Positions 10,974-16,456 of a stretch of 45,569 bases of DNA are shown here, piece after piece. Below the pieces are notes generated by a model, which searched no databases, was not told the DNA's origin, and saw only the letters and a program-made list of their open reading frames with translations. Position numbers and translations under genes: made by a program. The DNA comes from Chloroflexota bacterium (GTDB lineage: Bacteria; Chloroflexota; UBA11872; VXOZ01). The stretch covers positions 1-45,569 of the forward strand of contig JAPPLM010000021.1 of NCBI GenBank assembly GCA_028874195.1, written 5' to 3'. Within the stretch, counting starts at the first letter, position 1. Each line of letters opens with the position of its first letter.

Positions 10974-11741
10974 TTATTTCCGCCTGCGGGCCAGCCAGGA
11001 CGCAGCAATAGAGTATCCCAACACGGACATGATTGGGAAGACGCTGGCGAAAGCGATGAGTCCGAACCCGTCAATCAATGGGCTTCTTCCGGGAACGCTC
11101 GCGGCGAGGCCCAGCCCGATAGCTGCGACCACCGGTACAGTCACCGTCGAAGTGGTGACGCCGCCGCTGTCGTAGGCGAGGGGCACTATGGTCCGGCTGG
11201 ACCTGAATGTGAGCACCATCACAACGATGTAGGCACCGATGATGTACCAGGGCAAGGGAGTGCCGGTAACGATGCGGAAGCAACCCAGCGTGACGCCCAC
11301 GGCAACGCCGACGGCCACGGCAATTCTAAGTCCCCAGGCATGAACGGCTCCGCCCGATGCGTCGTGAGCCTTTATCGCCACGGCAACGAGGGAAGGCTCG
11401 GCCACGGTCGTCGCGAACCCGATGGCAGCGGCAAAGGCGTAGAGCAGCAGATAGTCGTGCCAGTCAATGCCGTCAGCCAGCCTCTCCGCTCCCAAAGTCT
11501 CGGGTGCGGTGAGCTGGCTCGCCATAGTCCTGCCAATCGGGAAGAGTGCATTCTCCAAGCCTATGAGGAACAGCGCAAGTCCCACCAGGACGAGGACGGA
11601 TCCCGCAGCTATCCGGCGCAGGTTGGGTGGCTTGCGACGCAGAAAGACGAGTTGAAACAGCAGAAGGATGGCTACAATGGGCGCGACGTCTAGAACTGTG
11701 GAGAGCAAGGCATCGGCAAAGGCTTGGGGCAAGTCGGTCAC
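10974..11741 (-). CDS. DUF1538 membrane protein, second subunit
   Basis: 255 aa with about 7 hydrophobic segments. Conserved signature: [20 protein letters not shown] followed by [22 protein letters not shown], shared with its upstream paralogue. GTG start overlapping the TAG of that paralogue (TAGTG), so the two subunits are made together. DUF1538 pairs (UmpAB) have been reported as two-component Na+(Li+,K+)/H+ antiporters in Halomonas; that assignment is recalled from the literature and here is only by family. A PII and a CBS protein follow in the operon and suggest nucleotide-controlled ion transport. Confidence 0.82.
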   Translation of the reverse strand: MTDLPQAFADALLSTVLDVAPIVAILLLFQLVFLRRKPPNLRRIAAGSVLVLVGLALFLIGLENALFPIGRTMASQLTAPETLGAERLADGIDWHDYLLLYAFAAAIGFATTVAEPSLVAVAIKAHDASGGAVHAWGLRIAVAVGVAVGVTLGCFRIVTGTPLPWYIIGAYIVVMVLTFRSSRTIVPLAYDSGGVTTSTVTVPVVAAIGLGLAASVPGRSPLIDGFGLIAFASVFPIMSVLGYSIAASWLARRRK

Positions 11742-12517
11742 TAGGCCACCATCCCATAGGCGAGGACGCAGATCATTGGCGTGAGGCTGGCGAAGGCGAT
11801 GAGACCAAAGCCATCGACCATTGGGTTGCGCCCGCGTATGGCCGTGGCGAGTCCGACGCCGAGCGCCGTCACAAGCGGGACCGTTATGGTGCTGGTAGTC
11901 ACGCCACCGGAGTCGTAGGCCACGCCGACGATCTCTGCCGGGGCGAAGACTGTCATGGTGGTCACCAGCACGTATCCCCCGATTATGAGCCAGTGGATCG
12001 GCCAGCCCTTGAGGATACGTAGTATGCCCAGCACGATGGCGGCGCCAACAGATACGGCCACAACCATGCGCAGTTCTAAGGCGTAGGTTGCGCGTGCGCT
12101 GTCATCGTTTGCAATGGCGCCGGCTTCAGCAGCGACGGCGGCGGCTTCGGCGGCAACGGCGATCAGGGCAGGTTCGGCTATCGTCGTACCGAAACCGAGG
12201 CAGAAGCCGAAGGCTAACAGGATGATAGCACTACCCTTCTGTGCGAATCCCTGCGCGAGCGCTTCTCCCAAGGGGAAGAGGCCGCTTTCCAGCCCCTGGA
12301 TGAAGAGGGTCAAACCAGCTATCACGCAGAGGAGCCCTATGAGCACGCTCAGTAAATCGGGGAAAGGCTGGCGGAGCACCACTACCTGGAAGAACGCTAT
12401 GACGAGAATGATAGGCGCCAGGTCCCGCAGCGCACTGAGGGTCAAACCCAGCATTGCAGACAGGAACTGTGTCACGTCTTCTGGCTGCTTCTCTGGGTTT
12501 GCGCCGGCCCGACACAT
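11741..12517 (-). CDS. DUF1538 membrane protein, first subunit
   Basis: 258 aa as drawn ([10 protein letters not shown]...). A second ATG at 12454 ([16 protein letters not shown]) fits the family start better; neither has a strong SD. Membrane segments include [16 protein letters not shown] and [23 protein letters not shown]. The signature [20 protein letters not shown] and [22 protein letters not shown] matches the downstream DUF1538 gene, so the operon holds a heterodimer built from paralogues. An Ala-rich stretch around [19 protein letters not shown] sits between membrane segments. First gene of a four-gene operon, reading away from tRNA-Val(GAC). Probable cation transporter. Confidence 0.82.
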
Positions 12518-12684: not shown

Positions 12685-12761
12685 TGGTGGGCAAGAGAGG
12701 ACTTGAACCTCCGACCTCCACGATGTCAACGTGGCGCTCTAACCGGCTGAGCTACTTGCCC
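12685..12761 (-). tRNA. tRNA-Val (anticodon GAC)
   Basis: A full cloverleaf is visible: acceptor GGGCAAG/CTTGCCC, D-stem GCTC/GAGC, anticodon stem CCACG/CGTGG with loop TTGACAT (GAC), T-arm GGAGG-TTCAAGT-CCTCT, and an encoded 3' CCA. A decayed copy lies 2.8 kb away at 9830-9903. Confidence 0.95.
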
Positions 12762-13734: not shown

Positions 13735-14046
13735 TCACACTTTCGCCTCTATATTCTGATTGTATCCGAGGTTCCTGAATTGAATCTGAGTTGCCCGCCG
13801 GCCAAACCTACTCGCTGGTGTCTTGGCGCCCATTCAAGCGATCAAGTCGACTGAACGCGCGTACAACCGCACTACTTGCCTTGCTCCAGTTTGCTGTATA
13901 GCATGGGGCTAGCGCTGGATAAGATCGGTCCAATGAGCGCCGGTTTGCCAACTGCGCCAAGCAATCCCGGCGAAGGGCGAAAAGGCCACAGTGGATTTGC
14001 ATAGCCACGTTAAGGCGCAGTAACACTGAAACAGGGGGTTACGATC
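13735..14046. other. Divergent intergenic region before the redoxin gene
   Basis: A 312-bp gap between two divergent genes, so it should hold both promoters, but I find no strong -35/-10 pair. AGGGGG at 14033-14038 is the ribosome-binding site of the GTG-initiated redoxin gene. Confidence 0.4.
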
Positions 14047-14910
14047 GTGAGCGTTACATTGGAGCGGCCCGAGGTCGGCACGGCAGCGCCGGACTTCAGC
14101 CTGCCGGACGTGTACGGCAAACGGTGGTCGTGGCGCGAGTTTCAGGGCAAGCGCGTGCTCTTGTTCATGTGGGCCTCGTGGTGACGCTGCCGCGATCAGT
14201 TGCCAGGTTGGCAGCAATTTGCCGAAACCCACGCCGCTGATAATTTCCAGATGCTCTCTGTGGCGCTGGACGTGGGCGGCGCTGAGAAGCCGCGCGGGTT
14301 TGCCGAGGAGTTCGGCGTCACGTTTCCCACGCTTGTGGATGCCAGCGGACTCCTGTTCCGCTTGTACGGCTTCACGGCGGTGCCAAACGGCGTCTACGTG
14401 GACGAGGCCGGCATCATCCGCTTCCAACTCTTCACGGGCTTCAGCATAGACCGCGAGGATATCGTCGCACAGCTTGAGATGCTGCTCGCCACGCCGACCG
14501 GCACGGTTCCCGCCGCGCCCACGGTAGGTCAACAGCCCTTCGAGATCGAGGTCATGTTGGAGCAAGCGGCGGCACACCGCGACAACCCGCACGCGCAGCT
14601 TGGCTTGGCGGAGGCCTACTTGCAGGAAGGTGAGAGCGCTCACGCGGCAGACGCCTTTACGCGCGCGCTAGACCTCGATGGCGAATCTGCCAGTGCCGCC
14701 TTTGGACTTGGTACTTCGCTCTATCAATTGGGTCAAACGACCGAGGCGCTCGCGTCCTGGCGACGCGCCTTGCGGCTCGAACCCGATAATTTCATCATTC
14801 GCAAGCAGATCTGGCGCGTCGAGCACCCTGAGAAGTTCTACCCTACAATTGACTACGACTGGCAGCAGGTGAAACTCGCTGAGGAGAAGGCCGCGGAAGG
14901 CCGGGCGTGA
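14047..14910 (+). CDS. Redoxin (AhpC/TSA/TlpA-like)-TPR protein with in-frame UGA: candidate selenoprotein
   Basis: Read from GTG 14047 (AGGGGG SD) with UGA 14182-14184 as residue 46, the gene encodes 287 aa. The N-terminus is a redoxin domain: GTAAPDFSLPDVYGKRW, then RVLLFMWASW-[UGA]-RCRDQLPGWQQF, then FPTLVDASGLLFRLYGF. In this family WASWC is followed by a second thiol; here the UGA sits exactly at the first Cys and the second is C48, giving U-x-C. Frame and homology continue unbroken after the UGA. The C-terminal ~110 residues are TPR repeats (AQLGLAEAYLQEGESAHAADAF, AAFGLGTSLYQLGQTTEALASW). A hairpin of bacterial SECIS type follows the UGA. Either a selenoprotein, or a TGC/TGT-to-TGA nonsense mutation. 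A downstream TTG start at 14200 would lose the active site and is unlikely. Confidence 0.72.
14199..14215 (+). promoter_or_regulatory. SECIS-like hairpin downstream of the in-frame UGA
   Basis: GTTGCCAGGTTGGCAGC folds into a 7-bp stem (one U-G pair) with a GGU loop. The stem starts 14 nt after the UGA and the loop G lies ~21 nt from it, within the range used by SelB-dependent bacterial SECIS elements. It resembles the E. coli fdhF minihairpin, which also presents GGU in its loop. Seen by eye, not scored by software. Confidence 0.6.
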
Positions 14911-14965
14911 ACGTGCGAAACGGACTTTGCTTCCGTAAGCCGTCACTCCCGCGAAAACTCCGTCG

Positions 14966-15023
14966 CTCCCGCGCAAGCGGGAGTCCAGAGATAAGAGAAG
15001 ATGGATTCCCGCGTGCGCGGGAA
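14966..15023. repeat. Two dispersed palindromic repeats
   Basis: CTCCCGC-GCAA-GCGGGAG (14966-14983) and ATTCCCGC-GTGC-GCGGGAAT (15004-15023) are consecutive perfect hairpins in the 310-bp gap 14911-15220. The second, with its flank AGATGG, recurs near 45481 in an interrupted form. They look like REP-type dispersed elements and may also stop transcription after the redoxin gene. Nothing else is seen in the gap. Confidence 0.6.
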
Positions 15024-15220
15024 TGACGGACGACGCGCCCCTCGCGTTACCCTCTTACATTCCCTCATCTGCTCGTCTTTTTCAACATACAAATGACGGA
15101 GTCCGTCGTGCTATTTCCATAGTAATGACGGATTAGGAAGTTTCTCTGTAACAGGGACTTTTGGTTTGTTGTGAGAGCTCGCCTCGGAAAGCAGCTCTGC
15201 GTGCAATGAGGGTCTAGCGT

Positions 15221-16456
15221 ATGGCGTGGGGGGTCCTGAATAATTTCATGCGGCCGAAGCGGCTGCTCGACCGCATCTTGTTGGTCGCTGAGCACGTCGC
15301 CGCAAGCGATGACGGGGCGCTGCCCGCGCTCCTGATAGACACGCTGCGGGAGCAATTCGGCGCGCAATACGTCTGTATCCACTTTGCCGATCCCGGCATG
15401 CTGTCCCCCGAGACACGGCAAACCTTAGTCGCCGCTTGCCCCGCTATCTCTGCCAACGCCACGGAAGCAGCCGGGGATGCGTTAGCCGAGGCCGGATTCT
15501 GGCAATACGCACTTACGTCAAGTAAGCCGGTCACCGCTGCAACCACACCCGCCGCCATACAGGATGAACTCCGCCCAGTCCTTGAGGCAGCCGGTGTGCG
15601 TGACAGCATAGCCATTCCCCTAACCTACCGGGGTAGTATCTATGCCGTGGTGAATCTCTACTTCAGACGATCAGTGCCGTCCACACTCGCCACTGCGGAA
15701 GACGTCTTGCGGAGCATCCGCCTGTTAGGGAACCTCGTCTACGGTGTTGTGCTACAGGAGCACCACGAGCGCGCGCTGCAAGGGAGTGACCGTCTCGCTC
15801 TGGCCCTGGCTCAGGCGGCTGCCGTCAGGGACGGCTACGCCGACGGCCACGTCGCGCGCGTGCGCGCGCTGGCGGAGTCGCTGGGTGAAGCGGCGGGATT
15901 GAGCCGCGCCGAACAAGAGGCGGCGCGTAAAGGAGCGATGTTACGGGACATCGGCAAGCTGCATGTCCCGGACTATATCCTCCAAAAGCCTGGACCGCTC
16001 AATGCTGAGGAACGCGCGCTCGTCCACGAGCATCCGGTTACGGGCGCGCGTATGCTGCTGGAAACCGACTTCGTCGTAGACGCCGACTTCGTCGCAGACG
16101 CCGGCCACGGTATTGAATCAGCCAGCCAGATGCTCTCTATAGTTGCTTCCATTGTCCGCACCCACCACGAGCGGCTCGACGGCTCCGGCTATCCCGATGG
16201 GCTAGCGGGATCAGACGTGCACAAGCTCGCCCGCATTGTCGCGATAGCCGACGTCTATGCAGCGCTGGTAGCGGACCGTCCGTACCGCGCCGCGTTGCCG
16301 GCGCCTCGCGCCGCGGAGGTGCTTATGGATATGGCTGGCCCCAAACTCGACGCGGATCTGATCTCGCTCTTTCTTTCGCGCGATGTTCCCGCGGTCGATT
16401 TGTCCGATCGTTCTGAACAGCCTGCTCAGACCACTGTCGCTACCGCCGCAATCTAG
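15221..16456 (+). CDS. GAF and HD-GYP domain protein with a substituted HD dyad
   Basis: 411 aa, ATG with GAGGG upstream. Residues ~15-170 look like a GAF sensor domain (AEHVAASDDGALPALLIDTLREQF, GVRDSIAIPLTYRGSIYAVVNLYF). From ~190 an HD-GYP domain follows: H210 in DGHVARV, ILQKPGPLNAEE, HEHPVTGARML, HHERLDGSGYPDGL (315-328) and ADVYAALVADRPYR. HD-GYP enzymes hydrolyse cyclic di-GMP. The dyad itself, normally LHDIGK, reads LRDIGK here (R242-D243), so a metal-binding His is lost while the GYP motif is intact. It may be a c-di-GMP binding sensor or a weakened enzyme. Standalone gene, convergent with an MFS gene. Confidence 0.87.
   Translation: MAWGVLNNFMRPKRLLDRILLVAEHVAASDDGALPALLIDTLREQFGAQYVCIHFADPGMLSPETRQTLVAACPAISANATEAAGDALAEAGFWQYALTSSKPVTAATTPAAIQDELRPVLEAAGVRDSIAIPLTYRGSIYAVVNLYFRRSVPSTLATAEDVLRSIRLLGNLVYGVVLQEHHERALQGSDRLALALAQAAAVRDGYADGHVARVRALAESLGEAAGLSRAEQEAARKGAMLRDIGKLHVPDYILQKPGPLNAEERALVHEHPVTGARMLLETDFVVDADFVADAGHGIESASQMLSIVASIVRTHHERLDGSGYPDGLAGSDVHKLARIVAIADVYAALVADRPYRAALPAPRAAEVLMDMAGPKLDADLISLFLSRDVPAVDLSDRSEQPAQTTVATAAI

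Follow-up and report, generated by a model that had tools for sequence, protein, structure and literature searches.

Redoxins with a U-x-C active site, in which U denotes selenocysteine (Sec), have been reported several times. A single U-x-C Prx-like sequence was described in 2005 (PMC1088965), and the GOS study of 2008, in its treatment of these proteins, gives 46 Sec sequences as 'Prx-like (UGC-containing)' selenoproteins (PMC2398784). The family list of a 2026 review includes a 'UGC-containing TlpA disulfide reductase family protein' (PMC13188914). The parts of the 2008 and 2026 papers that deal with these families do not mention a TPR fusion, and our literature search found neither a mention of WAxxUGC nor a description of a redoxin–TPR selenoprotein. 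The NCBIfam family NF041054 (ResA-like WAxxUGC motif-containing protein, WAxxUGC_long) nevertheless consists of WAxxU-x-C redoxins with a C-terminal TPR, and TGA is present in all members examined.

Here we analyse a stretch of 45,569 nucleotides (the window) from a Chloroflexota genome of 3.5 Mb that is 98.3% complete. The window contains a gene that, judged from sequence comparison, very probably encodes a selenoprotein in which UGA codon 46 is read as Sec within a U-x-C motif (Table 1). This conclusion is drawn from the conserved TGA, the Sec machinery of the genome, selection on both sides of the codon and a downstream hairpin with compensatory changes.

Gene structure

A single open frame covers positions 14047–14907 of the forward strand (287 residues), with one in-frame TGA, and its terminal stop at 14908–14910 is also TGA. 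The GTG start and the AGGGGG Shine–Dalgarno sequence of the original prediction are both present, with a spacing of 8 nt. Orthologues have purine-rich stretches at the position matching AGGGGG, and the start codon (GTG/ATG) and gene length are kept in five same-genus orthologues. The promoter scan did not find a sigma-70-like site.

The TGA and the adjoining U-R-C are likewise where they had been placed, within the local motif WASW-U-R-C-R-D-Q-LPGWQ. Their assignment to a thioredoxin-type active site needs qualification, as CxxC has one residue more than this motif and Gly follows Sec in the five same-genus relatives (WASWUGC, against WASWURC in the window protein).

Table 1. Positions of the predicted selenoprotein gene and its features in the window
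Feature	Position	Strand	Description
Predicted selenoprotein gene	14047..14910	+	287 codons, GTG start, own TGA stop
Shine–Dalgarno-like AGGGGG	14033..14038	+	8 nt 5' of GTG; read from sequence
In-frame TGA, predicted Sec46	14182..14184	+	first-Cys position of redoxin active site; TGA in 27/27 orthologues; Sec machinery
Cys48, presumed resolving Cys of U-x-C	14188..14190	+	invariant in orthologue alignment
SECIS-like hairpin GUUGCCA-GGU-UGGCAGC	14199..14215	+	begins 14 nt past TGA; stem of 7 bp with one G-U; GGU loop
Redoxin domain (AhpC-TSA/ResA-TlpA type), residues 10–126	14074..14424	+	AhpC-TSA 65.6 bits; NCBIfam ResA/TlpA models; PDB matches
TPR region, about residues 170–250	14554..14796	+	Pfam TPR_2/TPR_1/TPR_14/TPR_19; helical hairpins, pLDDT about 70–95
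Conserved C-terminal segment (RKQIWRVEHPEKFYPTIDYDWQ and tail)	14797..14907	+	R/K-x-Q/D-x-W in both subfamilies

Conservation of the TGA codon

We found 27 distinct orthologues in the phylum. Each has TGA at codon 46, and Cys, TAA and TAG occur there in none. These sequences comprise genus members and more distant members of the class and phylum, including 12 NF041054 matches from outside the genus, all with TGA at the equivalent codon, and the relatives that have names are MAGs labelled Chloroflexota or Chloroflexi. Protein identity falls from 74–81% within the genus to about 28% across the phylum. The other five same-genus genomes all carry the gene with its TGA at dS near 1, which contradicts a recent error or mutation. 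Among the six genus members, dN is 0.05–0.15 upstream of the TGA and 0.07–0.19 downstream, with dS of 0.3–0.9 and 0.9–2.4, respectively, indicating purifying selection on both flanks. The expectation that homology and frame continue on both sides of the codon is thus borne out, as the AhpC-TSA domain match spans the TGA and dN is low on either side of it.

If the TGA were a real stop, the locus would be a decaying pseudogene or two cistrons, the first for a peptide of 45 residues and the second, from the TTG at 14200, for a protein of 236 residues; a standard ORF caller reports 14200–14910 alone, with a TTG start. However, such a break would divide the redoxin fold at the catalytic residue in 27 genes, none of which substitutes TAA or TAG at this codon, and the TGA, the frame and the sequence on either side have been retained although synonymous divergence is close to saturation. 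A TGA that persists at a catalytic position through such divergence is neither decay nor an assembly error, and we consider a real stop highly improbable.

Divergence along the locus is uneven. Compared with one same-genus relative (L029), the flanks have 92–98% DNA identity and positions 14150–16250, which include the selenoprotein and GAF/HD genes, have 70–89%. This segment probably represents an allele swapped by recombination, and both alleles contain the TGA.

Selenocysteine machinery

The original prediction depended on Sec machinery in the same genome, and selA, selB, selD and tRNA-Sec are all found there. The selA (570.6 bits), selB (376.9 bits) and selD (380.6 bits) matches each exceed the NCBIfam cut-off, and the tRNA-Sec scores 67.1 bits (gathering score 47) and is identified by ARAGORN as tRNA-SeC(tca), with a UCA anticodon. 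The SelD gene itself (L023; C63:53216-54145, minus strand) is of the selenocysteine type, with an in-frame TGA at the active site (CAGUAGK) and, 3' of this, a hairpin with GGUG in its loop. Decoding of UGA as Sec is therefore independently indicated in this genome.

The machinery also bears on whether the UGA might be read as another amino acid, either as Trp by reassignment or as Cys or Trp by leaky near-cognate reading. Such reading would fit the open codon and the Trp beside it. It conflicts, however, with the use of TGA as the terminal stop in this gene and in several orthologues, with the alignment of Cys rather than Trp at this position in distant homologues, and with the presence of a dedicated tRNA-Sec together with SelA, SelB and SelD; we give it very little credence. 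Under the preferred reading, SelA, SelB, SelD and tRNA-Sec of the genome would decode UGA codon 46 as Sec.

Co-occurrence with selA was considered as a further line of evidence and rejected as uninformative, because selA is present in 80% of the phylum (321 of 400 genomes, leaving a fifth in which it was not detected) and in 28 of the 29 same-class genomes without the gene. Two carriers of the gene have no detected selA, and both assemblies are incomplete (77% and 86%).

A hairpin downstream of the TGA

The predicted SECIS-like hairpin is present at the claimed distance from the TGA, inside the coding sequence, and would direct Sec decoding. The model for bacterial SECIS elements is a hairpin just downstream with a small apical loop containing G (PMC1088965), a feature that the GGU loop shares. 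Folding of the single sequence (55 nt, −19.1 kcal/mol, z = −1.45) is not significant alone, and an Rfam scan of 12.5–16.5 kb gave no match at the hairpin, its sole threshold-passing match being a tRNA.

Covariation is significant. Across 26 sequences, 88.5% of the cells in the seven stem pairs are standard pairs, with 12 both-side changes, and neither value is reached in any of 500 column shuffles. Pair 18–34 occurs as C-G, G-C and U-A, covarying through amino-acid changes (Gln...Gln/Arg versus Asp...Glu/Thr), and pair 19–33 as C-G and U-A, with U-G. Sliding the alignment by one to three columns yields fewer paired cells and less covariation. All 27 sequences fold better than the mean of their synonymous-codon shuffles (mean z = −1.25), and G25 of the apical loop is invariant in the 26 aligned sequences. 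The pooled statistics are not independent, because the sequences share ancestry and the conserved peptide LP(G/V)WQ by itself dictates part of the stem; the compensatory changes support conservation of the hairpin but do not prove it.

Cysteine homologues and phylogeny

Alternation between Cys and UGA at residue 46, proposed as a test of the gene, is absent within the orthologous family, in which every sequence has TGA; Cys appears only in distant CxxC proteins of the ResA/TlpA type. We searched 400 genomes of the phylum with a profile, counting U as C and reading through stops, and found no Cys orthologue. Full-length matches down to about 1e-33 all contain TGA. Of the stop-free matches that we inspected, all but one, in genome G020, are ordinary ResA/TlpA proteins with CxxC. 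That exception is a C-terminal fragment whose N-terminal half, with the TGA, lies on another contig. The genome of the window has a ResA/TlpA protein of its own (L092, motif WATWCGPC). Because the Cys homologues are CxxC proteins, the U-x-C motif is the shorter of the two by one residue. A maximum-likelihood tree of the redoxin domain separates 26 Sec from 15 Cys sequences by one branch (100/100), and within the Sec side the NF041054 type (12 rows) forms its own clade.

Domain architecture and proposed function

A U-x-C redoxin joined to TPR repeats had been predicted, and both domain matches are real. PDB matches of the redoxin region are thioredoxin-family proteins, ResA and TlpA, and the TPR_2 match (46 bits) covers residues 216–248. 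AlphaFold2, run with a thin alignment of five sequences, gave a mean pLDDT of 50.5, with the redoxin half below 50 and the TPR part alone confident. The orthologues have in common the redoxin, the TPR and a C-terminal K/R-x-Q/D-x-W pattern, and the full C-terminal segment is conserved within the short subfamily to which we assign the gene below. Inspection by eye found no hydrophobic stretch before the start of the redoxin domain at residue 10, where ResA/TlpA proteins usually have an N-terminal signal or anchor; the absence of a leader suggests that the protein is probably cytosolic.

From knowledge of the redoxin family, we infer that the product functions as a selenol-disulfide oxidoreductase. 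The ResA/TlpA-like redoxin would use Sec46 and Cys48 as a U-x-C redox pair: by analogy with the family, the Sec46 selenolate would attack a disulfide or peroxide, the Cys48 thiol would resolve the resulting selenenyl-sulfide, and a thioredoxin-like reductant or system would recycle the enzyme. As for the C-terminal TPRs, general TPR biology and the domain layout, which recalls CnoX, give about an even chance that they dock a protein partner or substrate. A bolder and unlikely version is that this is a Sec-only family acting as a selenium-based chaperedoxin, in which the TPRs of the U-x-C redoxin hold or recruit oxidised clients.

The selenoprotein could instead be a Prx-like peroxide or disulfide reductase whose C-terminal helix bundle is structural, with no docking or chaperedoxin-like function. 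No more than one or two TPR units can be clearly made out, several relatives retain just one, and a conserved operon partner was not seen among the genus neighbours. By contrast, retention of the TPR and of the segment that follows it in both subfamilies, across the phylum, favours a selected role. We regard a purely structural bundle as a serious possibility, although one somewhat short of even.

The gene neighbourhood conserved in the genus, with genes for a SOUL heme protein, a GAF/HD protein and an MFS transporter, suggests no pathway. Elsewhere in the window, two copies of a palindromic repeat of the type GATTCCCGC-NNNN-GCGGGAATGACG lie just 3' of the gene (14961–15028), one of them exact and the other carrying 3 mismatches (chance expectation 0.01), and two adjacent DUF1538 genes (10974–12517) lie beside a tRNA gene (12688–12761).

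Comparison with known systems

NF041054 is similar to the window protein over both of its domains, with the model aligning to residues 12–270. The score of 151.4 bits is half the cut-off of 300. The match begins at profile position 82, and the window protein lacks the approximately 70–80 N-terminal residues of NF041054 (TGWxxKPxGxC...CVPLP) and its insert after the redoxin domain. The Gly position of the NF041054 UGC is Arg in the window protein. The two types are separate subfamilies in the redoxin tree. On the basis of the score and the longer N terminus of NF041054, we place the window gene by sequence in an unnamed, shorter sister subfamily, so that it is a known kind of selenoprotein. One genome (G305) has three UGC-redoxin–TPR genes, two of the short type and one of the NF041054 type among L069, L093 and L048, all with TGA.

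The original prediction treated the combination of redoxin and TPR as unfamiliar among described selenoproteins. It does occur in a described family, because NF041054 members share both the UGC redoxin and the TPR; the TPR is unmentioned in the name of that model and in the literature found, and the fusion is already implicit in the family. What is added here is the documentation of a TPR-bearing UGC redoxin subfamily just outside the current NCBIfam model. Standard ORF calling starts the gene at a TTG past the catalytic residue and loses the active site, an error to which relatives can also be subject. In this family, Chloroflexota seem as a rule to lose the gene rather than to exchange Sec for Cys, a pattern relevant to why certain enzymes require selenium.

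Among the other described systems, the GOS 'Prx-like (UGC-containing)' selenoproteins are, according to the section that presents them, pfam00578/TlpA-type redoxins with U-x-C, as is the window protein (PMC2398784). The CxxC thiol-disulfide oxidoreductases ResA and TlpA share its fold and active-site position, but they usually have an N-terminal membrane anchor, have no TPR and fall on the other side of the Sec–Cys split. The chaperedoxin CnoX/YbbN also joins a thioredoxin fold to a TPR domain at its C terminus, but it is a classical thioredoxin with no Sec, and its likeness to the window protein is one of layout and not of demonstrated homology of the fusion (PMC8129009).
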